From contig NC_088310.1 of the NCBI RefSeq assembly GCF_910592395.1, forward strand, positions 10,361,501-10,425,500: a stretch of 64,000 nt of DNA, given 5' to 3'. The notes beneath the pieces were generated by a model. That model ran no database searches. It worked only from the letters and a program-made list of their open reading frames with translations, and was not told the DNA's origin. This document shows positions 19,596 to 36,215 of the stretch, piece after piece. A program made the translations under genes and the position numbers. Origin of the DNA: Lineus longissimus (Eukaryota > Nemertea > Pilidiophora > Heteronemertea > Lineidae). Position 1 is the first letter of the stretch; each line of letters begins with the position of its first letter.

Positions 19596-19609
19596 TTCCA
19601 TTAAAATAA

Positions 19610-21079
19610 ATGGCCTTTTTACTGTCTTCATTATCCAAAACTGAAGTTAAAACCAAACATAATTATTCATCAGCTTCTGGAGTAATAAAGTATTATCCAA
19701 TAGCAAATCAACATAAAAGTAAATTCACCTATGACTTCTTTAATTTAGAAGTAACTGTTAATACTAATAACTTCTTCAGACTACAAGAAACTAAGATAAC
19801 ACCTGGGTTTTTGAGCCTGAAAAATAAGAAAGACTGCCTGCGACTGGAAAAGAATCCATTATCGTTTTACCAGAACCAATTTAACATGGCTGTTTGGTTT
19901 GCTACAACAGGTTGTGGTATTTCAATAGACGATCACTTGAATCACAGTGACCCATTGTTAAGGTCAATTTACAGGTTTCATGTTTACTATCAAATATTGA
20001 AGATCATGAAGAATCTAGAGATACCAATTCCAGGTGAAAGTGATTTTAATGAGACAAACAATAACATTAACCGTAGGAAACTAGGAGGGTTATTGAGTGA
20101 ATTTGGTTTAAAAGACGAGTACGATTTCTCGGTGTTTGAAAATAATGGTGGTTGGAGGTCATGGAGTGTACCGGATTACAACCCGAACATAACTGATCCC
20201 GGATATTACATCAATGATTCTAAAATCAATTTCTTCCTCATGCAAGTTCATGAAAATAGAATGCCACCGATGTTCAGTAAAGACTGGGATGCTGGAATGG
20301 CTAATTTCAAATATCCTGATACCTTCATTAAGTATCATGTGAAACAACACAAGAATGTATTTGATGTAATTACACAAAATGAATGTCAAACCTATCAACA
20401 ATTCATGATATTTAAATCAAATGGTTTCTTTAATCCTGGAATAGAGAGGTTGAATGACACAATAAGAACATATGTTTACTGTATTCTGGGTGCTCAGGCG
20501 TTGACCAGAACACCAATAATTGGAGTACCGGGTACAGAATTGGATGCTCAGAAGGAATTTAACAAACTATTAAAGGACTCGATTAATCAACATCCTGATA
20601 TTCCCACTTCAATTCAAAGATACCAAAAAGCAGTGAGTGACACTCATACAAGACTAGATTATGTAATAGCACCAGGATTGTATGTCATAGGATCAAATAT
20701 GGTACTCGTTATTGGTAAGCTGGATAACTACAATAATAACATTTTAATAGCACCAAAAAATGCTAAACCCGGTAAGAATGACATTAACCACAAAAAGACC
20801 TTACCACCACCACTGATGGAAGGAAATAGTTCTAAGAAAATAAGAGTTAAGAGTAGCGTTGGTACTGTCAAGACGGACTTCGTCCTGAGAGCAAAGCTCG
20901 AGACCAGTCATACACCAAAGAGTAATGTTGTTACACCAAAAACAACTGAAACCTCAAAGAATACTCCTACTACTACTAAACTTGACACCAAAGTTGAGAA
21001 GGTGGATGATACTCATGAAACAATTAAATTCATGCTTTACTCAGTTGTTGGTACATTGATTGTTTTTATGGTTAGATAA
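19610..21079 (+). CDS. Polinton conserved protein with QNQFNMAVWFATTGCG motif, tail-anchored
   Basis: 489 residues. I recognise the type as a protein common in metazoan Polintons, of unknown function, by NQFNMAVWFATTGCGISI (about residues 90-107), then SIYRFHVYYQI and ERLNDTIRTYVYCILGAQA (about 280-300). The last 18 residues are hydrophobic and could anchor the tail in a membrane. Near residue 420 a double-hairpin unit adds TDFVLRAKLE. It is the first gene inside the left repeat, 14 bp after it. The start ATG follows taaaataa. No catalytic motif is visible. The next gene starts 10 bp after the stop, so they may share a transcript. Confidence 0.8.
   Translation: MAFLLSSLSKTEVKTKHNYSSASGVIKYYPIANQHKSKFTYDFFNLEVTVNTNNFFRLQETKITPGFLSLKNKKDCLRLEKNPLSFYQNQFNMAVWFATTGCGISIDDHLNHSDPLLRSIYRFHVYYQILKIMKNLEIPIPGESDFNETNNNINRRKLGGLLSEFGLKDEYDFSVFENNGGWRSWSVPDYNPNITDPGYYINDSKINFFLMQVHENRMPPMFSKDWDAGMANFKYPDTFIKYHVKQHKNVFDVITQNECQTYQQFMIFKSNGFFNPGIERLNDTIRTYVYCILGAQALTRTPIIGVPGTELDAQKEFNKLLKDSINQHPDIPTSIQRYQKAVSDTHTRLDYVIAPGLYVIGSNMVLVIGKLDNYNNNILIAPKNAKPGKNDINHKKTLPPPLMEGNSSKKIRVKSSVGTVKTDFVLRAKLETSHTPKSNVVTPKTTETSKNTPTTTKLDTKVEKVDDTHETIKFMLYSVVGTLIVFMVR
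20875..20902 (+). repeat. Double-hairpin unit inside the 489-residue gene
   Basis: GGAC-TTC-GTCC, TGA, GAGC-AAA-GCTC, GA. In frame; encodes DFVLRAKLE. Confidence 0.9.
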
Positions 21080-21089
21080 ATAAGTAATT

Positions 21090-22733
21090 ATGGCTGAAGG
21101 AGGTGAAAATTATGAAATGAGTGATTACTATCCACATTACGATCCTGATTACGATCCTGATTACGAACCTGATTACAAACCTGAGGATTATGTTGATATC
21201 TTTGGTTTTAATAAAAAGCCTCGATATGATGACACAACATACAACACAGGAGGTGAAGATTATGCTGATATCTTTGGTTTTAATAAAAAGCCTCGATATG
21301 ATGACACAACATACAACACAGGAGGTGAAGATTATGCTGATATCTTTGGTTTTAATAAAAAGCCTCGAGATTATGACACAAAATACAACACAGGAGGTGA
21401 AAATCTTACTGATGAAACTTCATTCAGTACACCAGAAAGAGTAAGAGGTATTGTCCCTGAATTGATGGAAAAGGAGTTAAGTTACGATACAATAGAGGAT
21501 AAACTTGATACAGCATTGGGAGGATCAAACTGGAAGTATGACAAGAAAAAATTGAGTAATCTTTCACCACACATTAGTTACAAAGGTAACAAACTTTATT
21601 ACAATCCGACAAATTCTGAATTTGATTTGATAAAAGATAAACTAGGAAACAAAAATTTATTTGAATATCCTGATAAAAATGGAGAAAAGATAAAGTTTAT
21701 TCCTTTAACTAAGGATAATGGAAGCTTCTATGCTGAAGGCACATTAAAGACTAAGTTTGGTACTAGATTTGCTGACATGATTAAAGATATGATTGCACCT
21801 GAACCACCAGTAAGGGAACCTAAATCTGCATCCACTCAAACAGATATATTAATTAATGAGGTAAACAGTTCAAACAAACCAATAGATAAACTGATAGATG
21901 CTACTGATGATGAACTTAAATCACTGGGTTTTACTGAATATGCCTTGAGAGAACTTAGAGGGTTAAAACACGCTGGTGATGATCTAGCTGCAGTAAAGAT
22001 GGATAAGGACATGCAAATAGAGGAATTAAAAGATCAGCTTCATAATTTAACAAGAGACTATGTAAAGTCTGTAGAAGAAGATACTGAAGATAAAGGAGAG
22101 TTGAAAAAGCAAATAGATGAACTAAATGACAAATTGTATGAGGAACAGTCAAAGGTATGGAGGTTAGACAATGACAGGGAGTCACAAACTAGAAGAATTA
22201 AACGTTTAATTGTTGATGTTCTAAAGAAACCAGATTCAACTATTCCTCTGAAGGACAGAATAAAGTTACTTTTTAAGACGTATGGTGTAACTATTAGCGC
22301 CATAATAACAGCTGTTGTAATGACATTTACAACTCTAGGTCTCAGTATCAGTAGTGTTTTAAGTGGTGCCACTAAATCTGTAAAACCAACTCCAGGACCA
22401 GACCCAACTCCAGGACCAGACCCAACTCCAGGACCTACACCAGAACCTGGACCAGGACCAAAACCATCAATACCAGATAAAGTAAAAGAAGGTCTCAAGA
22501 AGTTTGCTGAATGGCTGAAAGAACTAGCCAAGAAATCAGCTGCGGCTTTACCGGGAATCATCGGTTCTATCGTATCATTTCTCCTGAAAACAATTGGTGC
22601 AGTTGTTGGCTTTCTAGCTGAACATCTGATCATAGCAGTTATTGCTATTGTTAGTTCCATAATCTATGGTTTAATAGAGGGTGTTAAAGCCTTAAAATCA
22701 CGTAAAGCCTTAAAATCACGTAAAAGGTCTTAG
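21090..22733 (+). CDS. Polinton conserved membrane protein, repeats and coiled coil
   Basis: 547 residues. The acidic N-terminus carries short DPDY repeats and then three copies of a 24-residue repeat (core ADIFGFNKKPRYDD, residues about 33-104). A globular part follows, then a coiled coil (about 310-370, MQIEELKDQLHNL onward). A hydrophobic segment (about 393-420), a Pro/Gly-rich linker (PTPGPDPTPGP) and two C-terminal hydrophobic segments (AALPGIIGSIVSFLL and HLIIAVIAIVSSIIYGLI) complete it. A membrane protein with this C-terminal layout is common in metazoan Polintons; its function is unknown. The repeats make this copy longer at the N-terminus. Confidence 0.78.
   Translation: MAEGGENYEMSDYYPHYDPDYDPDYEPDYKPEDYVDIFGFNKKPRYDDTTYNTGGEDYADIFGFNKKPRYDDTTYNTGGEDYADIFGFNKKPRDYDTKYNTGGENLTDETSFSTPERVRGIVPELMEKELSYDTIEDKLDTALGGSNWKYDKKKLSNLSPHISYKGNKLYYNPTNSEFDLIKDKLGNKNLFEYPDKNGEKIKFIPLTKDNGSFYAEGTLKTKFGTRFADMIKDMIAPEPPVREPKSASTQTDILINEVNSSNKPIDKLIDATDDELKSLGFTEYALRELRGLKHAGDDLAAVKMDKDMQIEELKDQLHNLTRDYVKSVEEDTEDKGELKKQIDELNDKLYEEQSKVWRLDNDRESQTRRIKRLIVDVLKKPDSTIPLKDRIKLLFKTYGVTISAIITAVVMTFTTLGLSISSVLSGATKSVKPTPGPDPTPGPDPTPGPTPEPGPGPKPSIPDKVKEGLKKFAEWLKELAKKSAAALPGIIGSIVSFLLKTIGAVVGFLAEHLIIAVIAIVSSIIYGLIEGVKALKSRKALKSRKRS
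21186..21401 (+). repeat. 72-bp tandem repeat, three copies, coding
   Basis: Units start at 21186, 21258 and 21330 and are 24 codons each, so gain or loss of a unit keeps the frame. Copies are nearly identical, which suggests recent expansion. Confidence 0.92.
22384..22460 (+). repeat. Pro-rich coding repeat (CCAGGACCAGACCCAACT)
   Basis: An 18-bp unit repeated with variants inside the 547-residue gene; encodes PTPGPD repeats between membrane segments. Confidence 0.8.
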
Positions 22734-22894
22734 GTGAACTTCTATCAAAACAATGTTTAAAAAATAATTATTATGTAAATATGAATAAATACATCTCATT
22801 AAAATACTATTTTAGTAAATGTAGCAATGAAAATCTTACTGGATTCCTTTGTCCTAGGGTTATGGATCGAGCTCTGCCTAGGAGGGGAGAGTGT

Positions 22895-22920
22895 TGTCCT
22901 AGTCGAGTCCGACTAGGACA
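22895..22920. repeat. Perfect 11-bp hairpin
   Basis: Arms TGTCCTAGTCG (22895-22905) and CGACTAGGACA (22910-22920) around AGTC, directly next to double-hairpin units. Confidence 0.9.
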
Positions 22921-22971
22921 AAGTCCCGAGAGCAAAGCTCGACTCGAGCAGAGCTCTCAGGACGAAGTCTG
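22915..22971. repeat. Two double-hairpin units, opposite orientation, noncoding
   Basis: GGAC-AAA-GTCC, CGA, GAGC-AAA-GCTC, followed by the inverted order GAGC-AGA-GCTC, TCA, GGAC-GAA-GTCT. Confidence 0.88.
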
Positions 22972-23001
22972 ACTGAGACAGGCAAAGTAGTCCTGCCAAG
23001 A

Positions 23002-23934
23002 ATGAAAGAATATGACGTCAGTACCAACACTAATGCCCAATTCTGCCGTAATTGTAAAAGGTGGACCCTTTTTGAGTATCAAAAAAACTTGAATTCAGCA
23101 AGGTACGCAGCTAAAACTGTGAAGTATCAATTCTGCACCAATTGCAATTCGACTACTTACGATGATGATTTTAAAACTCTTGAGATCAATATTGACAACA
23201 AGACACGTTACTTTGACAGTATTCTAAGGAAACTTGGATGGAGGCGGCTGTCCGAATCGGCAGTTAAGTATTTAAAGGACTTTGTGAAAGGGTATTTACA
23301 GTGCTACTTTTCAAGTCACAGAAAATGTCTTAGTAAGCAGAGATATGAAAGTACTCTTCAGTCAGCCCTAAAAATGGGTATTAACACTCTCCCCTCTAAG
23401 TTATGTAACCAAGGGTTACATGGTGAAGCCATGCTTTTTAAATTTCACTGTGGGGAATATGATTGGTTTCTTGCCATTGAATTTATTAACAGGGCAATTG
23501 GTAAACCGCAATTAACCGATGAGAATATCACTGACCTTAGACTAGTGTACTATGCTTTCCTTAGATTTCTGCATTACTGTGGTGTCAAGGTCACCATTAA
23601 CTACAAGGTATTTTTACACCAAGCCTTTAAAACGCTGAAAATTGATTATGTAATATTTACACCTTTTTTAACCAACAAGGAGCGAGTTAATGATTTGGAG
23701 AGATTATGGTATGATTTCACTCAAAGTATTTTCTTCCAGAATTACAAGGTTGAGAAGGAATATGACCAGGATATTGACAAGCAGTTTGACGTTTTACTGA
23801 GTGCCAGTGCAGGTAGAGACAATAACTGCATCAGTAGTATTAAGTTTACACCAGCCGGACTTCGTCCTGAGAGCAGAGCTCGAGCCGGACTTCATCCTGA
23901 GAGCATAGCTCGAGCTAGTGTTAAGATGCAATAA
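23002..23934 (+). CDS. Polinton protein with N-terminal zinc ribbon, function unknown
   Basis: 310 residues. The N-terminus has FCRNC and FCTNC pairs (about residues 14-51), a likely zinc ribbon. The rest is helical with many aromatic and basic residues and no catalytic motif that I recognise. A zinc ribbon before helical repeats would suit a transcription-factor-like protein, but that is speculation. Two tandem double-hairpin units supply residues near the C-terminus (GLRPESRARAGLHPESIAR), so the natural end may have been earlier. It lies between the 547- and 273-residue genes in the same direction. Confidence 0.65.
   Translation: MKEYDVSTNTNAQFCRNCKRWTLFEYQKNLNSARYAAKTVKYQFCTNCNSTTYDDDFKTLEINIDNKTRYFDSILRKLGWRRLSESAVKYLKDFVKGYLQCYFSSHRKCLSKQRYESTLQSALKMGINTLPSKLCNQGLHGEAMLFKFHCGEYDWFLAIEFINRAIGKPQLTDENITDLRLVYYAFLRFLHYCGVKVTINYKVFLHQAFKTLKIDYVIFTPFLTNKERVNDLERLWYDFTQSIFFQNYKVEKEYDQDIDKQFDVLLSASAGRDNNCISSIKFTPAGLRPESRARAGLHPESIARASVKMQ
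23857..23913 (+). repeat. Two tandem double-hairpin units in the 310-residue gene
   Basis: GGAC-TTC-GTCC / GAGC-AGA-GCTC followed by GGAC-TTC-ATCC / GAGC-ATA-GCTC; translated as GLRPESRAR and GLHPESIAR. Confidence 0.9.
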
Positions 23935-23985
23935 AGTTGTGAAAACAGCATTTTGCACTTAACAGTCATTTTTCCATAATTTTAA

Positions 23986-24807
23986 ATGAATAATCAGCAA
24001 ATGAATAGTCAGACATCTGCAGTGATTGAACAACAGATGAAACAGATTGGTGTTATGAGTCCTGAGAGCTTAGCTCGAGTTGGGGCTTCTAACCAACAGA
24101 ACACTGGTAGTTACCAACAAAACAGAACTAACTTTCAACAGAACTGCTCTACAAATCAACAAGTTTCAAACAAGCAGTTGAATAGTTCAAATTTTGTTAC
24201 TCCTAGTCAGGGAATAGTTAATTCTAGTTGCCAACTAGGATTAACTAGCAATCAACAAGGTTCAAGTAGCAATCAACAAAATTTGAACTATTTGACTGAT
24301 AGTGGCCTTAAAGCCAAACAAGACTTAGAAATTTTAATTGCAACTGGTAAAAGCAAGGATTTCCTTAATAAACAAATAACTTTTAATGACTTAGATAATA
24401 TGACTGAAAAAGAAATCTTAAAACACCATAGAATGTATGAAACAAAGATGGCTGCCAGACTTAATGATTCTTTGGGTAAGACAGTACTTAAAGCTTACAC
24501 TAAATTATCAAGGTGGTTATTACCAATAGATGATGAAGATGATCTTTATCATGATCTTAGAAATGATTATTTGATAACTAACGAGTTGGATAAATGGCTT
24601 GGATGGTTGAGTTTGAGAATGGGTGCACTAACTGCACTTGCCTCAACAACACTTATTACTTTAGGTCATTGTCATGAGGAATCATCTATGAATACATCGA
24701 GTATGACTGCATCAAATATGAATACACCAAATATGACTGTCTCTGAATGTGACAAACCAATAGATGAAAGTCAAGATATCACAGGTGGTGATGATAAAGA
24801 AGACTAA
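23986..24807 (+). CDS. Polinton conserved protein with Gln/Asn-rich N-terminus and membrane segment
   Basis: 273 residues. The first ~105 residues are Gln/Asn-rich low complexity. A conserved-looking middle follows (DLEILIATGKSKDFLNKQIT, then WLLPIDDEDDLYHDLRNDYL), then a hydrophobic stretch (about 202-226, LSLRMGALTALASTTLITLG) and an acidic tail. The middle plus membrane segment resembles a protein found in other metazoan Polintons; no function is known to me. The start follows attttaaATG. Half a double-hairpin unit (24,058-24,080) gives SPESLAR near residue 25. Confidence 0.72.
   Translation: MNNQQMNSQTSAVIEQQMKQIGVMSPESLARVGASNQQNTGSYQQNRTNFQQNCSTNQQVSNKQLNSSNFVTPSQGIVNSSCQLGLTSNQQGSSSNQQNLNYLTDSGLKAKQDLEILIATGKSKDFLNKQITFNDLDNMTEKEILKHHRMYETKMAARLNDSLGKTVLKAYTKLSRWLLPIDDEDDLYHDLRNDYLITNELDKWLGWLSLRMGALTALASTTLITLGHCHEESSMNTSSMTASNMNTPNMTVSECDKPIDESQDITGGDDKED
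24058..24080 (+). repeat. Partial double-hairpin unit
   Basis: Only the second hairpin, GAGC-TTA-GCTC, with flanking AGTCCTGA; in frame in the 273-residue gene. Confidence 0.8.
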
Positions 24808-24855
24808 ATTAACCTGGTTATGAGAACATAGTTCCAATTAATTTGAGCAAGATAA

Positions 24856-25392
24856 ATGGAACTTGAAACTGTAACTGATACTACTCGAGCTATGCTCTCA
24901 GGACAAAGTCCGACTAAAGTTTCAGTGTCTAAGAAACCTCGATCAGAGAAACAATTAGCATGGTCTAGAGAACTGGGTAGAAGATCTAAGGAATTTAAGA
25001 GGATAAAAAAGGATAAGACGACATTTAAAGTACAGGACTCTGTCCCAAAAAACAGAGTTATGGAAAAGGAGGAAGAAGAAGTAGAGGAAGAAGAACCACA
25101 ATCTCAAAATACTGATGTATCACTGCGTGAATCTAGTAGTAATACCTATGTCTATGTACTAGGTTTAGGTGCCGTTATTTTAGCAGCATTCATTATGTTT
25201 AAGAAACTTCCTAAAAAAGTAAGTAAAGAGCAGCGATCAGGCTTGAATCGAACTTTGTTCTCTGGACGTAGTCCTAATCGAGCTATGCTCTCAGGACAAA
25301 GTCCGAATGAAGCAGTCATGAAGGGATCAATTAACCCTCTTGTTAAACCTGTAGTTAAAGAGAAGAAATGTACTATTCCTTTAATGGAATGA
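24856..25392 (+). CDS. Polinton small basic protein with one membrane segment
   Basis: 178 residues. A basic region (KKPRSEKQLAWSRELGRR, about 25-45), an acidic stretch (KEEEEVEEEEP), then one transmembrane segment (YVYVLGLGAVILAAFIMF, about 97-114) and a Lys-rich tail. Basic domain plus single membrane helix is a layout seen in Polinton small proteins; it might bind DNA or anchor in a virion membrane, which is inference. Three double-hairpin units are read in frame (RAMLSGQSPT, RTLFSGRSPN, RAMLSGQSPN), over 15% of the protein. Confidence 0.72.
   Translation: MELETVTDTTRAMLSGQSPTKVSVSKKPRSEKQLAWSRELGRRSKEFKRIKKDKTTFKVQDSVPKNRVMEKEEEEVEEEEPQSQNTDVSLRESSSNTYVYVLGLGAVILAAFIMFKKLPKKVSKEQRSGLNRTLFSGRSPNRAMLSGQSPNEAVMKGSINPLVKPVVKEKKCTIPLME
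24885..24913 (-). repeat. Double-hairpin unit in the 178-residue gene
   Basis: GAGC-TAT-GCTC then GGAC-AAA-GTCC; encodes RAMLSGQSP. Confidence 0.9.
25248..25306 (-). repeat. Two double-hairpin units in the 178-residue gene
   Basis: First unit GAAC-TTT-GTTC / GGAC-GTA-GTCC, second GAGC-TAT-GCTC / GGAC-AAA-GTCC. The first shows the paired change GAGC/GCTC to GAAC/GTTC. Confidence 0.9.
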
Positions 25393-25402
25393 TCTCATCA
25401 GG

Positions 25403-25565
25403 TGGTCGAACCTTGTTCTCGGGACTTTGTCCTAGTCAGACTTCGTCCTGAGAGCAGAGCTCGAGTCCGAGGTGCTTGTCTTCACCACAAGAGTTTAACT
25501 CTATTCGGACTTTGTCCTGAGAGTTTAACTCTATTCGGACTTCGTCCTGAGAGCATAGCTCGATT
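25403..25565. repeat. Cluster of at least four double-hairpin units
   Basis: Includes GAAC-CTT-GTTC / GGGAC-TTT-GTCC, GAC-TTC-GTCC / GAGC-AGA-GCTC, GGAC-TTT-GTCC / GAGT-TTA-ACTC and GGAC-TTC-GTCC / GAGC-ATA-GCTC. It lies between the 178-residue gene and the body of the 353-residue gene and forms the C-terminus of the latter. Confidence 0.9.
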
Positions 25566-29500: not shown

Positions 29501-30378
29501 GGTTAGCACCATACATTGATTTTAACACTAAAAGACGTATGGATTCTAAGACTGATTTTGAGAAAGACTATTTTAAGCTCATGAATAATGCGTTCTACGG
29601 AAAGACTTGTGAGAATGTAAGGAACAGGGTTGAAATTGAATTTGTATTGGACGGGGAGAGAGCCAGGAATGTAATGGCCAATCCCAGGTTTTCATCGATA
29701 TGCGTATTTGACGAACATAATGCTGCTATTAGCATGAGGAAAACATCAATGAAATTCAACAAACCAATCTACATAGGAGCTTCAGTACTTGAATTGTCTA
29801 AATTATTAATGTATGAATTCTATTATGAAGTTCTTCAACCGTACTTTGGTGAGAAAAATATTGAACTACTGTATCTAGATACAGATTCCTTTGTACTTAA
29901 CATTAATACTGATGACTTAACTAAAGACTTAAAGGAGTTGAAACACTATTTTGACTTCAGTAATTATCCAAAAGATCATACACTCTATGACACCAGTAAG
30001 AAGAAGGTACCAGGCTACTTTAAGGATGAGCTAGGAGGAGTAGAGATGACTGAATTCATTGCCCTGAGAAGTAAGATGTACGCTTACAGGACAAAAAATT
30101 ACGATTCTAAGAAATTAAAGGGTATTGCCAAGAATGTAGTAAAGAGAAATATTTCATTTGATGACTATGTTGATTGTCTTGAAAAGAGTAGGTCATTTTA
30201 CCACAAGATGAGACACTTAAGATCAGATAAACACCAAATCTATTTGGAAGAAGTTGACAAAAAAAGCCTCAGTCCTTTTGATGACAAGAGGTTCATACTT
30301 GAAGATGGAATAAGCACCTTACCATTTGGAATGTATTATGAAGGCTACATAGATTACAGCGATTCAAACTTCGCTTGA
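26554..30378 (+). CDS. polB: Protein-primed family B DNA polymerase (Polinton PolB)
   Basis: 1274 residues from the ATG at 26554 (the frame opens upstream at a TTG that I do not use). N-terminal C2H2-type finger (CTTCDKYISYNNIAIHRR) and a second near residue 390 (CRRCMNYFYRKSTLDKHKKK). Exonuclease motifs: Exo I YADFEA (D435, E437), Exo II NLSNYDSH (N598, D603), Exo III YLKTDV (D747). A Cys/His cluster (C552, CNQPLG, DHDHYCGRYRG) lies between Exo I and II, as in Polinton enzymes. Polymerase motif A YVDANNLYG (D833), motif B KLMNNAFYGK (K1008-Y1015), motif C YLDTDS (D1109, D1111), then LRSKMYAY. All catalytic residues are present. At least six double-hairpin units lie in frame, outside these motifs. 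It replicates the element. Confidence 0.97.
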   Translation: MTDKNQKILCTTCDKYISYNNIAIHRRTKGHLSKLNPDYVPLAQPRAPSLIPKTMDKKLAFEENELDGIKKVSGIEIVKQFGKPVVTISLKIDREAKQVYEYRDKLEEVLFQLNDYHHKISIPVFAQFDRPLVEEQSIDRQGESVTRTKSREQSSTHPIQSPMESIISRNQAIYAITNQLNYIKTQIEERYFQGSGLTLNKIESCNMTICSYKRCKGGHYTKLPFKTKAVINVESNDNKCFLWSLLAAKYLKENPETDFVLRAELESTLNITTDMLEMTSSREQSSKTTDIKIKSFPVCIQKDIPKIESDNNLKINVFKLENEWAKSTCEAKLEPLYLSKNHDDDDVIDLLYFKDHFMYIRDINLFFRTLAHRVYLCRRCMNYFYRKSTLDKHKKKCGEHDYCKITLPPPNSKWSQIKFEKHSFKNRVPFVIYADFEAISTTVNDNSSSALRTKSDTTQSRARVGLRPQTDTTVTTKKLFKQNASAVGVYVHSDYEHLYSSQYVSHRGADVVDVFCNWLIRMEEQFSNLLNCNFPLTMTDEDWHKYQLETHCYYCNQPLGYDKVKDHDHYCGRYRGAAHNSCNLNEKKAMFVPVFFHNLSNYDSHLFIKELMTKLPKYKKLKILAKTSEEYISFQFGCFRFLDSYRFLQSSLDNITKSMLDDDFKITRQLFPNTTDFKLLRKKGSVPYSFYTSHESYNVTYLEKSMFFDELKNEMAPDSAYDEAKVIWDHFKIRNHGEFIDLYLKTDVILLADLFEKFRDVNLNYFQIDPCHCYSAPGLTWQAGLKYTGINLELLTDTNILLTFEKAIRGGISGVMGTRHVKADEHHKLLYVDANNLYGWSMMEPQPYGSFEMIDIDPLELCSQDKVRLNMNVISKEQIMAIPSDSEVGYFLEVDLEYPGNIKFKSRNFPFCPESLFIEDDELSPYQRELLGDDKRSNVEKLILTQKDKTNYIVHYRMLQFYLKHEMVLKRVHSVISFKQSKWLAPYIDFNTKRRMDSKTDFEKDYFKLMNNAFYGKTCENVRNRVEIEFVLDGERARNVMANPRFSSICVFDEHNAAISMRKTSMKFNKPIYIGASVLELSKLLMYEFYYEVLQPYFGEKNIELLYLDTDSFVLNINTDDLTKDLKELKHYFDFSNYPKDHTLYDTSKKKVPGYFKDELGGVEMTEFIALRSKMYAYRTKNYDSKKLKGIAKNVVKRNISFDDYVDCLEKSRSFYHKMRHLRSDKHQIYLEEVDKKSLSPFDDKRFILEDGISTLPFGMYYEGYIDYSDSNFA
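26992..27020 (+). repeat. Double-hairpin unit in polB, first
   Basis: GGAC-AAA-GTCC, CGA, GAAC-AAA-GTTC; encodes TKSREQSS near residue 150. Confidence 0.9.
27322..27412 (+). repeat. Two double-hairpin units in polB
   Basis: 27,322-27,350: GGAC-TTT-GTCC / GAGC-AGA-GCTC, read as DFVLRAELE. 27,386-27,412: TGAC-TTC-GTCA / GAAC-AGA-GTTC, read as TSSREQSS; both stems carry paired changes. Confidence 0.9.
27890..27960. repeat. Two double-hairpin units in polB, opposite orientation
   Basis: GAGC-TCT-GCTC / GGAC-GAA-GTCC followed by GAGC-AGA-GCTC / GGAC-TTC-GTCC; read as SSSALRTKSD and SRARVGLRPQ, just after the Exo I motif. Confidence 0.9.
29128..29157 (-). repeat. Double-hairpin unit in polB after motif A
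   Basis: GAGC-TAT-GCTC / GGAC-AAA-GTCC, read as LELCSQDKVR about 30 residues after motif A. Confidence 0.9.
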
Positions 30379-30395
30379 GTTGCAAAAATCATTAT

Positions 30396-30440
30396 TCGGA
30401 CTTTGTCCTAGTCGAGCTTTGTCCTGAGAGCATAGCTCGA
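30396..30440. repeat. Double-hairpin units between converging genes
   Basis: GGAC-TTT-GTCC, then a unit with GAGC-TTT-GTCC degenerate and GAGC-ATA-GCTC. They fill the gap between the PolB stop and the stop of the 292-residue gene and could act as a two-way terminator. Confidence 0.8.
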
Positions 30441-31319
30441 TTAAATTAATGAATAGGGTGGTGCTGATGGTAGTGTTACTTGGTGAAATTCATCCCTAAC
30501 ACCAAAGTAATGATAATAGTGATAGTGATACACCACATTAGGATTAGGACTATTTAGTCGGACTTCGTCCTCGGGACCTTGTCCTAGTCCGACTTCGTCT
30601 TGAGAGCATAGCTCGAGTCGAACTTTGTTCTCTGGACGTAGTCCGGGTCCTGTTTGATTTACTGAACTTTTAGTTTTTCTAGCATCTCTGTCTGTGCTAG
30701 TTTTTTTCCTTCTTCTAAAAAAGTCTTCTTTTAAGGACTCTACATCAACAGCTGAACTTGCCTCCCTTTGTTTTTTCCTAATGGCATTTTTCATCGAAAT
30801 GTATTTCTCCTTCTCCTTGAGAATCAAAGTAAACTCATCTGTAGATATGTGAGAATCGGTTAAGGCTTTACTAACCAAATCATTGATTGTGTTCAGTTTT
30901 GAAATTGCCAACATTCTGATATTCTCATGCTTTTCAATTTTCCTTAGAATATTCTTTTTCTCCCAGCCTAAGGCTGATGAAATAATGGCACTACCTATTG
31001 TTACGCCACCCAAAGCTAAGCCTATCGGTGCCGTGATGACACCAGCTAGAGCGGAAACACCAACAGATCCGGCTGCTACGCTAGTTAAGTTAAGGAAATG
31101 GCTAATGCCAGTAATTACGCTAAATGCTTTTTTGTACTTTGAAAATATCTTTCTTCTAAATTCAATCTCGCTTTCTAAGAAACTCTTAACCTCACATATT
31201 TGTTGTAGTCTGAAAGCCTGAGGGTTACTTTCTGTATGCTTTTCAGACCTTTCATAGTTCAATTGACTTTCAGAGTTTAAATTACTTAAATCTGGATAAA
31301 CCTTATTGTCTCCATCCAT
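30441..31319 (-). CDS. Polinton conserved membrane-active protein
   Basis: 292 residues. N-terminal amphipathic region, then KKAFSVITGISHFLNLTSVAAG and a Gly/Ala-rich hydrophobic hairpin (about 80-115, with GVITAPIGLALGGVTIGSAI), then helices (KHENIRMLAISKLNTINDLV; STDEFTLILKEKEKY) and a basic stretch (RRRKKTSTDRDARKTK). The family is common in Polinton-bearing animal genomes; function unknown, perhaps membrane insertion like an entry or core protein (inference). Three double-hairpin units follow at about residues 225-255 (GLRPENKVR, LELCSQDEV). The tail is His/Tyr-rich and ends PSAPPYSLI, containing a PSAP tetrapeptide. The start follows taattaaATG. Confidence 0.75.
   Translation of the reverse strand: MDGDNKVYPDLSNLNSESQLNYERSEKHTESNPQAFRLQQICEVKSFLESEIEFRRKIFSKYKKAFSVITGISHFLNLTSVAAGSVGVSALAGVITAPIGLALGGVTIGSAIISSALGWEKKNILRKIEKHENIRMLAISKLNTINDLVSKALTDSHISTDEFTLILKEKEKYISMKNAIRKKQREASSAVDVESLKEDFFRRRKKTSTDRDARKTKSSVNQTGPGLRPENKVRLELCSQDEVGLGQGPEDEVRLNSPNPNVVYHYHYYHYFGVRDEFHQVTLPSAPPYSLI
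30556..30648. repeat. Three double-hairpin units in the 292-residue gene
   Basis: GGAC-TTC-GTCC / GGAC-CTT-GTCC, CGAC-TTC-GTCT / GAGC-ATA-GCTC and GAAC-TTT-GTTC / GGAC-GTA-GTCC lie head to tail. Confidence 0.88.
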
Positions 31320-31323
31320 TTAA

Positions 31324-31575
31324 TTAGTGGGAATAACTAGAATCAGTTGTTCTGTCATTTCTAGTGTTTAGTGTTGATCCTACAGACACTACAGGTTTTT
31401 GAAGTACATTAAATTTTAAAGGTTTTTCTGTCCCAGCAGGCCCAGCAGGTTTTAAAGGTTTTTCGGGACCAGGCTCCAACTTTGACTCTACTTCTGCCTC
31501 TAATTCTCTATGAAATCGTTCTAATCTTTCTTTCCAATTACGTGGTCATTTTGTGTAACCCCAAGTTCTATTCAT
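31324..31575 (-). pseudogene. Small Polinton ORF broken by an in-frame TGA
   Basis: Starting at ATG 31575 after attaaATG, the frame reads MNRTWGYTK, meets TGA at 31546-31548, then stays open for 73 more codons (PRNWKERLERFHRELEAEVE, a Pro/Lys-rich middle with KPLKPAGPAG) to a stop at 31324. The start context matches the neighbouring genes, so I take it as a real small gene with a recent nonsense change, a recoded stop, or a sequence error. Function unknown. Confidence 0.55.
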
Positions 31576-31594
31576 TTAATTAAGTAAAATAAAA

Positions 31595-32704
31595 TCAATT
31601 CACTGCAAAGAGTAAATTTCTTTCAAGTCTATTATTCAACTTAATCATCTCGTTTATGATTTCTGTCTGACTACATATGTTAATGTTCTGGTTCATTCTC
31701 ATGTTATTATTTAAATTCGATAATCTATCAAGCAGAATCATATTTTCATCACGAAGATAATCCCCGAAATGCTGTGATATCACTATTTTCCAATTTGGTA
31801 TTACATCCTGGTCTCGAAAGACAAACCAGTTTTCACTTCTCATCTTTACCATGAAATCCATTGACCTATCCAATTGATCCTTAAATAGTGTGTAGTCTAC
31901 TTTAGCACTCTTCTGTCTGTTTTCTGTCTTTTCCATTTGTCTCATGTTAAACCAAGCAAAGCACAGTTCAGGTTTATCTTTGAATTCCTTGATTGGTAAG
32001 ACATGATCCAACTCTTCTTCTACTATTCGAACTCTGTTCTCGGGACTTTGTCCTATTGGAGATAGACTCCTCTGGTACTCTAACCACTGTGAGAAGAAAC
32101 TGTCTGTACATCCTAGATTGAATGATGAATTACCAGTCGGACTTCGTCCTGAGAGCAGAGCTCGATTACACTCTCCCTTAGAAATGCGGTTTAGACCAAC
32201 TCTAATTTTGTGTCTGTCTCTATTACCATTTTGGTCAAGGTAATCCTTTTTGTAATATGAATTAAAACATGATCTGCAGTTACCTCTATTTCCGTCTTTA
32301 CCAAATTCAACATCACTTAGTAATTTAATTTCATAACATTTATTACATCCCTTGATTTTACTTGAACCACATTCTTTACAGTAATCAAGTAGTTTATTAC
32401 GCCTGTTCTTTTCAAAATTAATTTCAGGTTTCTTTTCACAGCACTTAACACAATAAATTGTAGGTTGATTTTCCATATTTTGATTTTCCATGTTTTGATT
32501 TAAGATAAACTGATTTATCATATTTTGATTTAACATAATCTGATTTATCATATTTTGATTTAACATATTATTTTGATGCAAATAATACAAAAACTTCTGA
32601 ATATTCTGATTCATCATATTATCATGATTCATCATATTATTCTGATTCATCATACCATTTTGATTCATCATACCATTTTGATTATCAAATATTGCTCCAT
32701 CCAT
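31595..32704 (-). CDS. HNH-type endonuclease with zinc ribbons and Met/Asn/Gln repeats
   Basis: 369 residues. The first ~80 are repeats of MMNQN and related pentapeptides. Cys pairs follow: CVKCCEKKPEINF, CKECGSSKIKGCNKC and CRSCF (about 85-145), as in zinc-ribbon-plus-HNH proteins. The HNH-like core is EEELDHVLPIKEF, then CFAWFNMRQMEKTENRQKSA (about 225-265), with D-H, N and N in the expected order. Its likely role is DNA cleavage during replication, recombination or packaging (inference from the family). Two double-hairpin units interrupt the linker between ribbons and core (RALLSGRSPT, GQSPENRVR). Confidence 0.75.
   Translation of the reverse strand: MDGAIFDNQNGMMNQNGMMNQNNMMNHDNMMNQNIQKFLYYLHQNNMLNQNMINQIMLNQNMINQFILNQNMENQNMENQPTIYCVKCCEKKPEINFEKNRRNKLLDYCKECGSSKIKGCNKCYEIKLLSDVEFGKDGNRGNCRSCFNSYYKKDYLDQNGNRDRHKIRVGLNRISKGECNRALLSGRSPTGNSSFNLGCTDSFFSQWLEYQRSLSPIGQSPENRVRIVEEELDHVLPIKEFKDKPELCFAWFNMRQMEKTENRQKSAKVDYTLFKDQLDRSMDFMVKMRSENWFVFRDQDVIPNWKIVISQHFGDYLRDENMILLDRLSNLNNNMRMNQNINICSQTEIINEMIKLNNRLERNLLFAVN
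32026..32055. repeat. Double-hairpin unit in the HNH gene, first
   Basis: GAAC-TCT-GTTC / GGAC-TTT-GTCC, located just before the HNH core. Confidence 0.9.
32136..32165. repeat. Double-hairpin unit in the HNH gene, second
   Basis: GGAC-TTC-GTCC, TGA, GAGC-AGA-GCTC; read as RALLSGRSPT. Confidence 0.9.
32460..32704 (-). repeat. Low-complexity coding repeat for MMNQN and related units
   Basis: 15-bp units (atgatgaatcaaaat and variants) encode the Met/Asn/Gln-rich N-terminus of the HNH protein. Confidence 0.85.
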
Positions 32705-32792
32705 TTCTTTCTTTATTTAGTAGGACATTTTTTTTTAAAATTACGTTTTTCGAACTTGTTCTTGTGACTTAAGTCACTTTAGAGACTTTATT

Positions 32793-33914
32793 TCATTTCA
32801 ATGATTTGATATCAGAAACTGGTAACCATTCATTGAACTTATCACTGTAACCCTTCCACTTCACTAATCCGTATTTCTTGCCTTTACTGGTCTTGTACCT
32901 TAGGATTTTCTCGATCTTGTACTCTAGCTGGTCAGGATTAGGAACATAGCTCAATTCCTCTTCATAGAAATATCCTTGAATTTCTTCTTTGTGGTTATCC
33001 TCAAGCTGGTAGACGATAGGGTGAGTAAAGATGATCTGTTTGATTTGGAACACCTCCTCAGTGTAGTTGGGCATGTAACCTTTACCGAAAATGGACTTGT
33101 ACTTTGAAATTCTTACACTGTCACCTACTTTGTACTTTGGATTACCAAATGTCTCTTTGAGGTGAAGACCGTAAAGATTGTACCACACTGTTCCTTCGTT
33201 TTCCATCTTTCTGGCGTCTACAGGTTTCATACCTATTGATGAGTGAAATGTGTTATTGTAGCCGCTGACCAGGTCATCCAGAACGTCAATCCACTTGTCT
33301 GTCTCCTTAGCGGTGAAATAACGCCACATTTTTTCTTTAAGGGTTCTATTGAATCTCTCTACTACTGCTGCCTTCTTATCAGATTTTGTGGAGAACCATT
33401 CTATGTCATTTTCTGTTAAGAGTTCCTTGAAGTGTTTGTTGTAAAATTCTTTACCGTCATCAAACTGGATTTTCGTTGGTTTTGCTTCCTCAAATATCAC
33501 TTCAAATGCATCTCTGATTTCTTCTTCCCTCTTACTCTTAACTGCTAGAGCCCAAGAAAAACGACTAAATAGATCTATGACTGTTAAAATGAATCTGTTG
33601 CCTTTATTTTGTTTCTCGAATTTTTGCATGTCAACCAGATCTGCTTGCCATTGTTGATCGATGTACGATACCATTGTCTTCCGGAACGTAAATTTCTTAA
33701 TGGCCGGTTTGTGTAGTTGGTGAGTTGGTAGTGTTTCTAGAAATTCTTTCACTTCTTTTTGTTTAATAAGTTTTCCTGAGCTCTGCTCTCGTGACGAAGT
33801 CATATCTTCCTTGACCTGTTTCCAGATTTTACTCAAAGAACTGTAAGCCACGGGACTCTCGGGGTTGTAGTACAAATCCCTTAGATACTGCTGTGTGTCA
33901 TCCTTTACATTCAT
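32793..33914 (-). CDS. int: Polinton integrase (RVE type) with C-terminal chromodomain
   Basis: 373 residues. The RVE core has WQADLVDM (D92), IQFDDGKEF (D152/D153) and KAAVVERFNRTLKEKMW (E186), a D-D-E triad with slightly under 35 residues between the last two. A C-terminal chromodomain runs from about 332 to the end (EKILRY...YGLVKWKGYSDKFNEWLP), which in related integrases directs insertion to marked chromatin. One double-hairpin unit adds TSSREQSS at residues 39-46, in the linker before the core. It inserts the element and makes the 6-bp duplication. Its ATG and that of the ATPase are separated by only 4 bp. Confidence 0.95.
   Translation of the reverse strand: MNVKDDTQQYLRDLYYNPESPVAYSSLSKIWKQVKEDMTSSREQSSGKLIKQKEVKEFLETLPTHQLHKPAIKKFTFRKTMVSYIDQQWQADLVDMQKFEKQNKGNRFILTVIDLFSRFSWALAVKSKREEEIRDAFEVIFEEAKPTKIQFDDGKEFYNKHFKELLTENDIEWFSTKSDKKAAVVERFNRTLKEKMWRYFTAKETDKWIDVLDDLVSGYNNTFHSSIGMKPVDARKMENEGTVWYNLYGLHLKETFGNPKYKVGDSVRISKYKSIFGKGYMPNYTEEVFQIKQIIFTHPIVYQLEDNHKEEIQGYFYEEELSYVPNPDQLEYKIEKILRYKTSKGKKYGLVKWKGYSDKFNEWLPVSDIKSLK
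33776..33803 (-). repeat. Double-hairpin unit in the integrase gene
   Basis: Minus-strand reading TGAC-TTC-GTCA, CGA, GAGC-AGA-GCTC. The first stem has the paired change GGAC/GTCC to TGAC/GTCA. Confidence 0.88.
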
Positions 33915-33925
33915 TTAAATGAGTG
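33905..33925. promoter_or_regulatory. Shared start region of integrase and ATPase genes
   Basis: The two ATGs face apart with ttta between them. Both strands read TTTAAATG or similar, so promoters must lie inside the opposite gene or transcripts must be leaderless. Confidence 0.5.
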
Positions 33926-34539
33926 AAGTATTTATTTACGAGCCACACAATATGTTAATTTCTGGTGTTACCAATTGTGGTAAGACATATTTTGCCCTTG
34001 ACCTCTTAGAAAAGGAGTATCGGCACAAGTTCCAGAACATAGTCATTTTCTGTCCAACATATTTCAACAATAAGACATATGAAAGGAAATGGATTTACCA
34101 AGACAAGAACGTCTACATAGTTAATCCCGAAGCTGTGGCCAGTAATTTGGACCTTGTGCTTCAGTTTGCTACTCTGACCTTTGCTGGTTCTAACACATTA
34201 TTCCTCATTGATGACTGTGCTAATTTGAGAGACACAAAAAAGAAGGTGTCCGAGTTATGTAATCTTGCCTTTTCCGGCAGGCACTACAATCTCACTGTTT
34301 GGTTACTAGTTCAGAAGTACAATTCAGTTGTCAAGGACTACAGAGAGAACATAAGAATTTTAGTCCTGTTCTTTAACAAGGATGAATCAGCCATGAAAGA
34401 TGCCTTAGAAGAAAACAGTGTTATTCCTAAGGAGAAAAGACAGTACTACATAGAAGAACTTAAGATGAAAAAAGGATCAAAACTGATCATTAGACTACAA
34501 CATCCATTTGGATTTACTCTTTCCCATCAAAAATCTTAG
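33919..34539 (+). CDS. A32/FtsK-HerA-type genome-packaging ATPase
   Basis: 206 residues. Walker A GVTNCGKTYF (about 15-24), Walker B NTLFLIDDCANL (about 93-104) and NLTVWLLVQKYN (about 129-140) as sensor region. The length fits Polinton ATPases, which pump DNA into capsids. No double-hairpin unit lies inside. It is divergent from the integrase and converges on the 152-residue gene. Confidence 0.94.
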   Translation: MSEVFIYEPHNMLISGVTNCGKTYFALDLLEKEYRHKFQNIVIFCPTYFNNKTYERKWIYQDKNVYIVNPEAVASNLDLVLQFATLTFAGSNTLFLIDDCANLRDTKKKVSELCNLAFSGRHYNLTVWLLVQKYNSVVKDYRENIRILVLFFNKDESAMKDALEENSVIPKEKRQYYIEELKMKKGSKLIIRLQHPFGFTLSHQKS

Positions 34540-34547
34540 TCCCGCTT

Positions 34548-34612
34548 CTGATCATCAGGACTGTGTCCGATCATCAGGACTGTGTCCGATCATCAGGACT
34601 GTGTCCGATCAG
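34548..34612 (+). repeat. Three-copy 22-bp variant of the hairpin unit
   Basis: atcatcaggactgtgtccg is repeated three times with GGAC-TGT-GTCC hairpins. It lies between the converging ATPase and 152-residue genes and overlaps the end of the latter. Confidence 0.88.
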
Positions 34613-35051
34613 TGGTCTTAGTCTTTCTAACCCTAGTAAAATAATAAATTATTAACCCTAAACCACTAAGTCCTAGGATAATCCATAGGTATTCGTATTT
34701 CTTCATTTCATCACTAGGTTGGTAGTAATCACTTAATTGTGGTCGCTGAGGTAGTACAATAGTTCTTTCTGGATGTAAATGATTGTAAACAGTAAGTGCT
34801 GAATCAGTATTGTTAAAATCAATAGAAGCGTCTCTTTCTCTCTTTAATTCAAGGTTAACGAAGTCAATGGTACTTTTCCTATGTTCATCCCATTCTGTGG
34901 ATGCTCTTTGCAATTGCTCTTGAGCTAAATTATGTCTCTTCATTTCAGTCTCATAGCTATTCTTGTCTAGTTTTTTAAAAAGGTAACCGGATCCAGTGAA
35001 TGCTAATCCATTGATTATTGCAGATCCAAATAACATACCAATGCCAGCCAT
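34593..35051 (-). CDS. Polinton conserved two-membrane-segment protein
   Basis: 152 residues. The N-terminal segment GMLFGSAIINGLAFTGSGYLF (4-24) and C-terminal segment LWIILGLSGLGLIIYYF (about 122-138) are hydrophobic. Between them lie a charged helix and a Pro-rich stretch with HLHPERTIVLPQRPQL. A similar protein recurs in metazoan Polintons next to the capsid genes; a virion membrane role is inference. Its end overlaps the 22-bp hairpin repeats. The start follows gaattaaATG. Confidence 0.72.
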   Translation of the reverse strand: MAGIGMLFGSAIINGLAFTGSGYLFKKLDKNSYETEMKRHNLAQEQLQRASTEWDEHRKSTIDFVNLELKRERDASIDFNNTDSALTVYNHLHPERTIVLPQRPQLSDYYQPSDEMKKYEYLWIILGLSGLGLIIYYFTRVRKTKTTDRTQS

Positions 35052-35076
35052 TTAATTCCAGTGAATTTAATGATGT

Positions 35077-35107
35077 GTCGGACTTTGTCCTGAGAGCATA
35101 GCTCGAG
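35077..35107. repeat. Double-hairpin unit between the 152-residue and minor capsid genes
   Basis: GGAC-TTT-GTCC, TGA, GAGC-ATA-GCTC; noncoding, in a 72-bp intergenic spacer. Confidence 0.9.
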
Positions 35108-35123
35108 TTAATACCAATTGGTA

Positions 35124-35843
35124 CTATACATTATGACCATTAAGATCGATGATGTCACCTTTTTCATCAGTTAAGCGAATATTCAGCTTATTGAATCTTG
35201 GTTTACAGGGAATTGCTATTGGTTTCTCAAATGTGTATGCTATTAAATCTCCAAAATCAGCTTCCTTTATTGGTCTTGTGGTTAGCACATCAGATGCTTC
35301 ACCACTACTTAATACACTATTAGATTCGATTATGTCACAGTGAAAAACAAAATGGTTAATTGGTCTAAAATTGATGGGTTTCTCGCTTACAACATCATCC
35401 TTAATTTTATTGTCTAAAGGGTAAGGCCATTCTGATTTCATGCCAAATAACTCATTACTTTTACCAATAAAATAGATCTGATAATGCGCCTCATTGTTTC
35501 TCTTTAGGAAGTGTAAGACGGCCTTACCTGTTGGTTCTTCAAGGTCAAATCTGACAGCACCTCTACTCATACTATTTTCTTTCAACTTATCCGCAAATAC
35601 TTTTGAAAAGCTCTGTAGGTCATAGAGACCATCTGGTAGCGTAATCTCTGCCACATCAAACCCCTTAACTTTGATTCGGTTATTCTCCCTGGCTGCACTT
35701 ATGTTGTAGAATGTAAAAGGTATTACTGCAAAAGTTAAAGTGATGCTACATGCATCCTGAATTTCAGTCTTGAGATTGACTGTTAAATCACTTGAACTCT
35801 GATCTGGATAGTCACTTGAATCTATGTTCATTACAGTAACCAT
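35124..35843 (-). CDS. Minor capsid (penton-like, jelly-roll) protein
   Basis: 239 residues, beta-rich. Typical Polinton penton features are SSSDLTVNLKTEIQD near the start, ITLTFAVIPFTFYNI, then EITLPDGLYDLQSF (about 67-80) and the closing LNIRLTDEKGDIIDLNG. These suggest a single jelly roll at capsid vertices. No signal peptide, and free of double-hairpin units. It sits between the 152- and 78-residue genes and the major capsid gene, all on the minus strand. Assignment rests on recognised sequence style and gene order. Confidence 0.85.
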   Translation of the reverse strand: MVTVMNIDSSDYPDQSSSDLTVNLKTEIQDACSITLTFAVIPFTFYNISAARENNRIKVKGFDVAEITLPDGLYDLQSFSKVFADKLKENSMSRGAVRFDLEEPTGKAVLHFLKRNNEAHYQIYFIGKSNELFGMKSEWPYPLDNKIKDDVVSEKPINFRPINHFVFHCDIIESNSVLSSGEASDVLTTRPIKEADFGDLIAYTFEKPIAIPCKPRFNKLNIRLTDEKGDIIDLNGHNV

Positions 35844-35900
35844 TTACTTAAGCAAATTTTCGTTTTCAAATTTACCTTTTATCAAATAAGTAAATTATTC

Positions 35901-36137
35901 TTACTTCATAATATTTCTGGGTAGGATTCCTTGATCGTAAAGGTACTCTAATGTTCCATTACTAATAGCTACAGTTCCACCCAGTTTAAGAATTTCCTCT
36001 AGGTTGGCCTGACTTGGGGGACCAATATTGATTCTCAAGAACCTTTTCAGTAACATAGAGTAACCAATTGTTGTTGATGCCAACAGTAAACTTTGATACA
36101 GTGTATTTATGATATCTTTCTTTCCTGGTGTATCCAT
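35901..36137 (-). CDS. Small Polinton hydrophobic protein
   Basis: 78 residues. A hydrophobic stretch (LYQSLLLASTTIGYSMLL) and a second helix (LEEILKLGGTVAISNGTLEY), ending YDQGILPRNIMK. Small proteins of this build lie beside capsid genes in other Polintons; function unknown. The start follows gtaattaaATG. Confidence 0.65.
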   Translation of the reverse strand: MDTPGKKDIINTLYQSLLLASTTIGYSMLLKRFLRINIGPPSQANLEEILKLGGTVAISNGTLEYLYDQGILPRNIMK

Positions 36138-36189
36138 TTAATTACTTAGAAAATCACTAGTAAAACTCATTTATCTAGTATTCAGTGCT

Positions 36190-36206
36190 GGAGCGAACTT
36201 TGTTCT
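36190..36206. repeat. Half double-hairpin unit before the major capsid stop
   Basis: GAAC-TTT-GTTC next to a short ggtgtt-type inverted pair; only half of the usual unit remains. Confidence 0.6.
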
Positions 36207-36215
36207 TGCAACACC

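Follow-up and report, generated by a model that had tools for sequence, protein, structure and literature searches.

A mobile 27-nucleotide double-hairpin mini-element in Polinton DNA of the nemertean Lineus longissimus

A family of 27-nucleotide (nt) units, each built of two small hairpins, is scattered through one Polinton, a virus-like transposon, in a 64,000-nt stretch of the Lineus longissimus genome (the window; contig C3, positions 10361501 to 10425500, in a genome of 391 Mb and 30 contigs). All 27 units of the window lie inside this 18.9-kb Polinton (19385-38260; positions given without a contig are those of the window). Comparison of the window with other Polinton copies of the same genome revealed that the units are mobile, and within the sample of sites studied they were restricted to Polinton DNA. 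The explanation that we consider probable, although by no means assured, is that the units form a selfish mini-element family that lives on Polinton DNA only and probably multiplies during Polinton replication, by a route that would involve template switching or else a circular or tandem intermediate of 30 nt.

The strict pattern GGACNNNGTCCNNNGAGCNNNGCTC matched the window 11 times (7 forward and 4 reverse), with all matches between 20875 and 35104. When at least 14 of the 18 fixed positions were required, 26 matches were obtained, all within 20-37 kb, and five mononucleotide shuffles gave 0, 1, 0, 0, and 0. A covariance model made from 89 distinct units and run unfiltered over the window returned 27 units (16 forward and 11 reverse) at E values of 3.5e-5 or less, all within 20874-35105; the remaining 27 of its 54 matches (E values of 0.011 to 0.89) were mostly half hairpins and the reverse strands of true units. 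No credible unit was found in the window outside the Polinton, the sole model match there being at 18213-18243 with an E value of 0.89. These counts agree with a preliminary description of this DNA, which had proposed about 25 to 30 copies in one Polinton and none elsewhere in the window, occurring singly, in tandem (here with a 30-nt period), and in both orientations. The range given there, 20.9-36.2 kb, was correct at its start and not at its end, since the units reach 35.1 kb and the sequence at 36.19-36.23 kb is a different, 34-nt palindromic repeat.

The core of the unit is 25 nt long and consists of a hairpin (stem of 4, loop of 3, and stem of 4), a link of 3, and a second hairpin of the same dimensions. 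One base on each side completes the 27-nt element, and the inserted length is usually 30 nt, made up of the element and a 3-nt junction; these lengths replace the unit of about 29 nt proposed before, whose closing TC/GA corresponds to the last G of the element plus the junction. Among 107 distinct units, the leading base is mostly C or A, the trailing base is G in 84, and the link is mostly NGA (TGA in 53, AGA in 21, CGA in 17, and GGA in 3), so that the TGA and CGA links described earlier both occur but do not exhaust the range. The plan of two hairpins, GGAC/GTCC and GAGC/GCTC, likewise held, with the qualification that the stems vary by compensating changes (TGAC/GTCA, AGAC/GTCT, GTAC/GTAC, and GAAC/GTTC), variants to which the strict pattern is blind. 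The closing inner C-G pair of the two hairpins is nearly invariant (86 and 87 of 89 units) and the outer pairs vary; C-NNN-G triloops are stable in DNA chemistry. The G+C content of the 27 window units is 37-63%.

Pairing in the stems is conserved, and the stems covary. In the 89-unit set, 94.5% of the cells were paired, compared with 87.4% after shuffling, and 49 double-sided changes were counted versus 10.5. This set had been assembled from 95 rows scoring at least 13 of 18 fixed positions by dropping 9 (apparently decayed units, half units, or chance matches) and adding 3 with other stems that were partly found by their pairing, and both steps favor pairing. In all 95 units, taken by sequence score alone, the effect persisted and was slightly weaker, with 91.7% paired versus 85.7% shuffled and 45 double-sided changes versus 9.0 (the maximum of 500 shuffles was 17).

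To follow the units among Polinton copies, pieces of the genome carrying such copies were fetched (stretches numbered with L), and L009-L044 supplied the set of insertions and deletions (indels). In twenty 10-kb stretches around strict matches on contig C1, the Polinton copies were mostly 85-98% identical to that of the window, and one was about 75% identical. Of the 152 gaps that measured 12-80 nt relative to the window Polinton, 71 had a length of exactly 30 nt. L009-L044 gave 150 distinct clean 30-nt indel contexts, several of which can belong to one place, and the next commonest length in the range of 12-51 nt was 18 nt, with 30. At least 7 of the 8 hairpin pairs were formed by 113 of the 150 (all 8 by 87), compared with 20 of 3,000 shuffles. 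Insertions of 30 nt were also present between genes (at 22.8 kb, 22975, 25405, and 30437), and therefore the 30-nt step is not solely a reading-frame effect. Indels of 15, 18, 33, and 36 nt were mostly protein tandem repeats or differences in the length of open reading frames (ORFs). Genome-wide, the integrase frames cluster at 373 and 383 residues; a few measure 364 or 393 residues, and 367, 369, 374, 380, 382, 384, and 394 also occur as intermediate lengths. One 30-nt indel was counted per 42-43 substitutions in each of the three divergence classes below 3%, and per 46 to 352 in the higher classes, the stretch pairs in these classes being overlapping and not independent; even below 1% divergence there were still three 30-nt indels in 15 kb. 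The integrase unit has a second unit nested within its hairpin, at 33780, in L010, L012, L016, and L025. Insertion at many sites, in both orientations, nested, and at low divergence demonstrates mobility.

A direct repeat of at least 3 nt was present at the junctions of 81 of the 113 double-hairpin indels, compared with 539 of 6,193 random 30-nt Polinton blocks (8.7%); examples are GACT at 28181 (L010), ACT at 24244 (L022), and AAT at 32028. The 55 clean events were reduced to 37 target contexts, a few of which lie beside another unit or correspond to one place seen again in a different Polinton lineage. A repeat of at least 3 nt occurred in 31 of the 37, and the left, right, and empty-site trinucleotides were identical in 25. 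One junction copy deviated from the target in 8 contexts (the right copy alone equaled the empty site in 6 and the left alone in 2); in 1 further context both copies agreed and yet differed from the empty allele, and 3 fitted nothing. In the orientation of the element, the first junction position of the empty site was A in 32 of the 37 contexts and the third was T in 27. No unit stood directly upstream in 22 contexts, of which 20 had a pyrimidine (Y) at -2 and 9 had YYYY, compared with 51% and 7% at all ANT sites of the window Polinton, a post hoc comparison devised after the sites had been seen and made on these 22 of the 37. A 30-nt insertion at 27930 starts with hairpin B and ends with hairpin A; it is also found in L022, and the site is cleanly empty in L019 and L024. 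This circularly permuted unit (27930-27956, forward; hairpin B, a 5-nt junction, and hairpin A), counted in addition to the 27 model units, is the only one of 21 distinct B-A arrangements without regular neighbors on both sides.

Genome-wide, the strict exact-stem pattern matched 985 times on the forward and 975 times on the reverse strand (1,960 in total), and the reversed control matched 0 times. The TGAC/GAAC stem type gave 69 and 63 matches, the strict pattern without its final G gave 34 and 35, and as many as 7 exact copies follow one another directly (C1:13018055-13018259). The genomic surroundings were checked for 119 sites, namely, the first 100 strict matches listed, all on C1, and 19 hand-picked ones, rather than a random draw from the 1,960, and all 119 proved to be Polinton sequence. 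Of the first 100, 93 fell in fetched stretches, and each of these had a Polinton protein match no more than 1.5 kb away; the other 7 lie among Polinton protein matches (L043 and L044). The hand-picked sites, on other contigs (9 of the TGAC type and 10 atypical strict matches), all had a Polinton protein match in the 1-2 kb of sequence fetched for each. Three seemingly isolated strict matches on C1 sit in divergent Polintons; distant carriers (L029-L031) are mostly 66-80% identical in DNA to the other copies, with short stretches reaching 90%, and are 71% identical in integrase and 38-68% identical in DNA polymerase B (PolB). L034 and L035 carry the TGAC type. Viral contigs searched with three stem variants of the unit gave 0 matches each. 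A unit peptide was present in 1 of 197 homologous proteins (P0186, 95% identical), the source of which is perhaps the same or a sister species. A host repeat, which the preliminary description had named as a reading that would undo its own, was rejected on the basis of the 119 sampled sites, and the single burst of tandem duplication that it had named likewise does not fit the 37 target contexts, the 22 without an upstream unit, the use of both orientations, and the nesting. Its suggestion of an undescribed parasite of a virus-like transposon gained support from insertions at differing sites among related Polintons (the 150 clean 30-nt contexts with their empty sites), which it had proposed as the proof of mobility; the functional signal that it offered as the alternative became less likely, with most window copies lying in ORFs, in every relative frame, and being optional between near-identical Polintons.

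Within the window, 21 of the 27 units lie in ORFs and 6 are intergenic; ORFs hold 1.3 units per kb, and the sequence outside them has a twofold higher density, 2.5 per kb. The three sense phases read DFVLRAKL, GLRPESRA, and RTKSREQSS, and the three antisense phases read ELCSQDEV, RAMLSGQSP, and SSALRTKS. Since all six relative frames are used, it is the DNA and not the peptide that is kept. The first unit (20874-20900, forward; DFVLRAKL), which also matches the strict pattern and is flanked by AGA on both sides, lies in ORF489. It is followed by two adjoining intergenic units (22915-22941, forward, and 22945-22971, reverse), by a tandem pair of 30-nt period in ORF310 (23856-23882, GLRPESRA, and 23886-23912, both forward), by a decayed unit in ORF273 (24051-24077, forward; 24.8 bits), and by a divergent intergenic unit with stems TAAC/GTTA and GAAC/GTTC (24809-24835, forward; 24.7 bits). 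ORF178 contains a unit (24886-24912, reverse; RAMLSGQSP) with a clean empty site in L016, L019, and L027, as well as a tandem pair (25249-25275 and 25279-25305, both reverse). The intergenic unit at 25407-25433 (reverse) is absent from L013, L019, and L023, and next to it stands a unit encoding the C terminus of ORF353 (25437-25463, forward; ELCSQDEV), a frame that also holds a tandem pair (25506-25532 and 25536-25562, both forward). Five units are in the PolB gene: 26992-27018 (forward; RTKSREQSS), absent from L010, L013, L016, and L025; 27323-27349 (forward; DFVLRAEL), absent from L019; 27385-27411 (forward; MTSSREQSS), with stems TGAC/GTCA and GAAC/GTTC; 27893-27919 (reverse; SSALRTKS), absent from L019 and L024; and 29130-29156 (reverse; ELCSQDKV), absent from L019 and L021. 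An intergenic unit at 30413-30439 (forward) precedes three in ORF292, of which the first (30559-30585, reverse) has GGAC/GTCC in both hairpins, the second is at 30589-30615 (forward), and the third (30619-30645, reverse) is absent from L010, L024, L025, and L027. In ORF369, the unit at 32028-32054 (reverse) is absent from L018, with AAT duplicated, and that at 32138-32164 (forward) is absent from L010, L016, L018, L021, and L024. The unit in the integrase gene that carries the nested insertions is at 33777-33803 (reverse), and the last unit (35079-35105, forward) is intergenic.

From these sequences we infer that copying would take place while the Polinton replicates, with the Polinton DNA itself as the substrate: protein-primed strand displacement would expose single strands, and on these the hairpins could fold. 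An endonuclease VII-like enzyme, for which ORF369 and a domain of PolB are both candidates, may first cut the DNA; phage endonuclease VII cleaves branched DNA. What is then joined, via microhomology of 3-5 nt, might be a nascent strand or else a 30-nt intermediate, either tandem or circular. The typical entry comprises the 27-nt element and a 3-nt junction, mostly a duplicate of the target (A-N-T after a pyrimidine-rich stretch). Because insertions with such a junction are 30 nt long, coding frames survive, and with this step the unit may be read in nearly every frame as ten superfluous codons. Action on Polinton DNA apart from the chromosome is suggested because host DNA should also have been struck if the agent were a nuclear transposase or a reverse transcriptase, and a periodic or circular 30-nt donor is suggested because the step is mostly constant while the junction register shifts and because the junction letters sometimes deviate from the target, as well as by the permuted case. 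A more specific version, in which a gene-less 27-nt hyperparasite would move only on replicating DNA of the virus-like transposon, by way of a single-stranded hairpin intermediate, circular or periodic at 30 nt, that carries its 3-nt junction along, is put forward tentatively and is rather doubtful.

Several observations weigh against copying during Polinton replication or limit its reach. No intermediate was seen and no enzyme was tied to the units, and a permuted insertion was found at one site only. There are exceptions to the 30-nt step: among 55 indels that measure 26-60 nt but not 30, 19 reach 7 or 8 pairs, examples being the 27-nt indel at 33777 and a 29-nt one close to 34.55 kb. Of the 150 indels of 30 nt, 37 form fewer than 7 pairs and are protein tandem repeats, tandem units in a shifted register, or decayed units. 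Where a unit is present in one copy and absent from another, the cause may in some cases be a loss or an exchange between Polintons. The folding of a single unit of single-stranded DNA is only moderate (-2.8 to -4.1 kcal/mol; z scores of -0.6 to -1.9), and hairpin energies taken alone are unconvincing; moreover, the conserved pairing could stem from templated correction of palindromes rather than from a need of movement. Finally, the clean target duplications in 25 of the 37 contexts are what an ordinary transposase would leave.

Those exact 3-nt duplications matching the empty site, together with the preference for A-N-T following pyrimidines, are the best case for a transposase that recognizes the hairpins and moves the unit in trans as it would a miniature inverted-repeat transposable element, with a fixed 3-bp target duplication. 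Such an enzyme should, however, strike host DNA if nuclear, yet every one of the sampled sites was in a Polinton; the 6-bp AACGCT flanking the Polinton makes its own integrase an unlikely agent; and the ends of the commonest type of unit, CGGAC and CGAGC, are poor inverted repeats. With 8 of 37 junctions deviating on one side and one insertion permuted besides, we regard a transposase of this kind as unlikely. The unit ends do not match the ends of this Polinton (AGAAAG). A hairpin RNA transcribed from the units and reverse transcribed into nicked Polinton DNA is very unlikely: RNA intermediates have been suggested for the double-hairpin elements of Allomyces (PMC2800124), the YYYY/A target could be interpreted as a nick-primed site, and a BEL/Pao coding sequence adjoins the Polinton, but the listed insertions show neither poly(A) nor 5' truncation, the steps are mostly fixed at 30 nt, and host DNA had zero copies among the 119 sites although a reverse transcriptase would not be bound to Polintons.

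Selection might instead have multiplied a functional signal of the Polinton, for packaging, replication, or transcript ends, as the conserved pairing, the twofold density between ORFs, and the hairpins that mark polyadenylation sites in Mimiviridae (PMC4402537) would allow. Nevertheless, Polinton stretches with a divergence of less than 1% do not all carry the same units, ORFs contain 21 of the 27 window units, with every relative frame represented, both orientations occur, and purifying selection against genic insertions would likewise raise the density outside ORFs; we give a signal little credence. Slipped-strand tandem duplication with recombination of old copies, never reaching new sites, would account for the tandem arrays of 30-nt period and the row of 7 exact copies on C1, but the 22 contexts without a unit directly upstream, the clean empty alleles, the nesting, and the two orientations make it an exceedingly improbable explanation; as a full account slippage is refuted, and tandem growth is a side process. 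A ten-residue peptide kept by selection as a protein repeat has almost nothing left to recommend it: most window copies are in ORFs with the frame kept, but the same DNA gives the six unrelated peptides listed above, 6 of 27 copies are intergenic, and the use of all relative frames refutes this reading. Multiplication on replicating Polinton DNA thus stays the explanation that we prefer.

The carrier Polinton has the features of its class: PolB, an rve integrase, an A32 ATPase, terminal inverted repeats, a 6-bp target duplication, which is the usual Polinton length, and a capsid protein. Its ends are AGAAAG and CTTTCT, its inverted terminal arms (19381-19595 and 38050-38264) are 215 nt long including flank letters and 99% alike, and the AACGCT duplication stands at 19379-19384 and 38261-38266. 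PolB (26521-30378, forward; DNA_pol_B_2, E value of 1e-17), which we take to be of the protein-primed type, contains a stretch resembling Endonuclease_7, a weak match (6e-4) under the Pfam cutoff; an NCBIfam search with PolB gave no match. The integrase with its chromodomain (32793-33914, reverse; rve, 1.3e-11; Chromo, 1e-7) holds one unit, read as MTSSREQSSGK. By the covariance model, units were lacking from both the A32-type packaging ATPase gene (33919-34539, forward; Pox_A32, 6.8e-15) and the major capsid protein gene (36216-37472, reverse). The latter matched Capsid_N at an E value of 0.013, under the Pfam cutoff, and 2 of its 116 homologues carry the precomputed Pfam capsid domain PF16903. 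ORF369 (31595-32704, reverse; two units) is a candidate nuclease of the endonuclease VII type (phrog_1035, 1.8e-5); Pfam and NCBIfam searches with it were without a match, and its structure prediction, made without an alignment, was unusable (mean pLDDT score of 34). A PDB sequence search returned just two matches, both with an E value of 1.4; searches with the capsid protein against viral contigs and with the integrase against phage records found zero relatives; and family searches of this Polinton's ORFs, in which not every ORF was compared with every library, found no RAYT-type transposase.

Of 1281 candidate integrase matches in the genome, 110 scored matches were 95-100% identical to the window copy and mostly free of stops, and the genome appears from these sequences to harbor a large Polinton population that was active recently. 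The BEL/Pao-type retrotransposon coding sequence (38800-44396, reverse) adjoins the Polinton directly. Polinton proteins P0002, P0124, and P0193 sit in records named Bartonella, Sulfurimonas, and Omnitrophica, which are likely animal contigs inside bacterial assemblies; the record Bartonella sp. CL32QHWL-2, which holds a 95% identical capsid relative, is probably, at a guess, a contaminating animal contig. Other repeats were also noted. Just upstream of the capsid gene (36187-36226), a palindromic repeat with a 34-nt step (GAACTTTGTTC, then CAACACCTTAGTGTTG) varies in number among Polinton copies (L011, L017, and L028) and is perhaps a second hairpin element. A 19-nt tandem repeat with a hairpin (GGACTGTGTCC; 34550-34611), between the ATPase gene and ORF152, varies in L011, L017, and L021. 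Elsewhere in the window, there are two arrays of a 15-nt repeat in opposite orientation (13401-13574, TATTCCTGTTTCGCC, and 14288-14428, GAATAGGCGAAACAG) and a seeming duplication (57386-58123 and 61878-62617) with a shared tandem repeat and ORF pairs of equal length.

To our knowledge, the unit would, on the more specific version given above, be the smallest kind of mobile DNA in a nuclear setting. If its confinement to Polintons extends to the entire genome, that confinement would document that Polinton DNA replicates separately from the chromosome. The in-frame copies show parasitism at the DNA level that gives viral proteins inserts of ten residues; units viewed as peptides only would suggest protein repeats. 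For mitochondrial examples, two studies (PMC4478555 and PMC2800124) treat the spread of gene-less hairpin mini-elements as an unsettled question. Here, a single genome offers about 2,000 exact-stem copies spread over many near-identical Polintons, and clean empty sites are available at a divergence of a few percent or less; junctions, donors, and targets are therefore directly readable, and mechanisms can be tested.

Among known systems, the titles and abstract openings of the best-ranked publications on hairpins or palindromes in Polintons or virophages, and on double-hairpin elements, report no such units in Polintons. REP/BIME sequences moved by RAYT transposases are, like these, small multicopy hairpin units, but they are prokaryotic (compare PMC3733652). 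PARCEL repeats are coding palindromic repeats of suspected mobility; they are characterized by a 25-residue amphipathic tandem protein motif (PMC2996958), whereas no conserved peptide is found here. The comparison with Rickettsia palindromic elements made in the preliminary description holds for palindromic DNA lying in frame within protein genes (here 21 of 27 units in ORFs) and not otherwise, since those elements are bacterial, about 150 bp long, and each with a conserved peptide (PMC10969869), whereas the present units are 27 nt long and use all frames. The mitochondrial comparison also made there is apt for behavior, in which mitochondrial GC clusters and double-hairpin elements come closest. 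The double-hairpin elements of Allomyces, as their name implies, have two adjacent hairpins and are optional between close species; they reside in mitochondrial DNA and, according to PMC2800124, have no flanking duplications, whereas the present units are in Polintons on contigs of 15.9-29.4 Mb and 81 of 113 indels have a repeat of at least 3 nt. GC clusters of yeast mitochondria, of 42 nt in the case studied (the GC42 family), are GC-rich within AT-rich mitochondrial DNA, while the present units, of intermediate G+C content, belong to a nuclear virus-like transposon and are largely genic and in frame. According to PMC4478555, these clusters spread rapidly and are bordered by AG or ACT, and they share with the units described here both short direct repeats at their flanks and copies that are optional.

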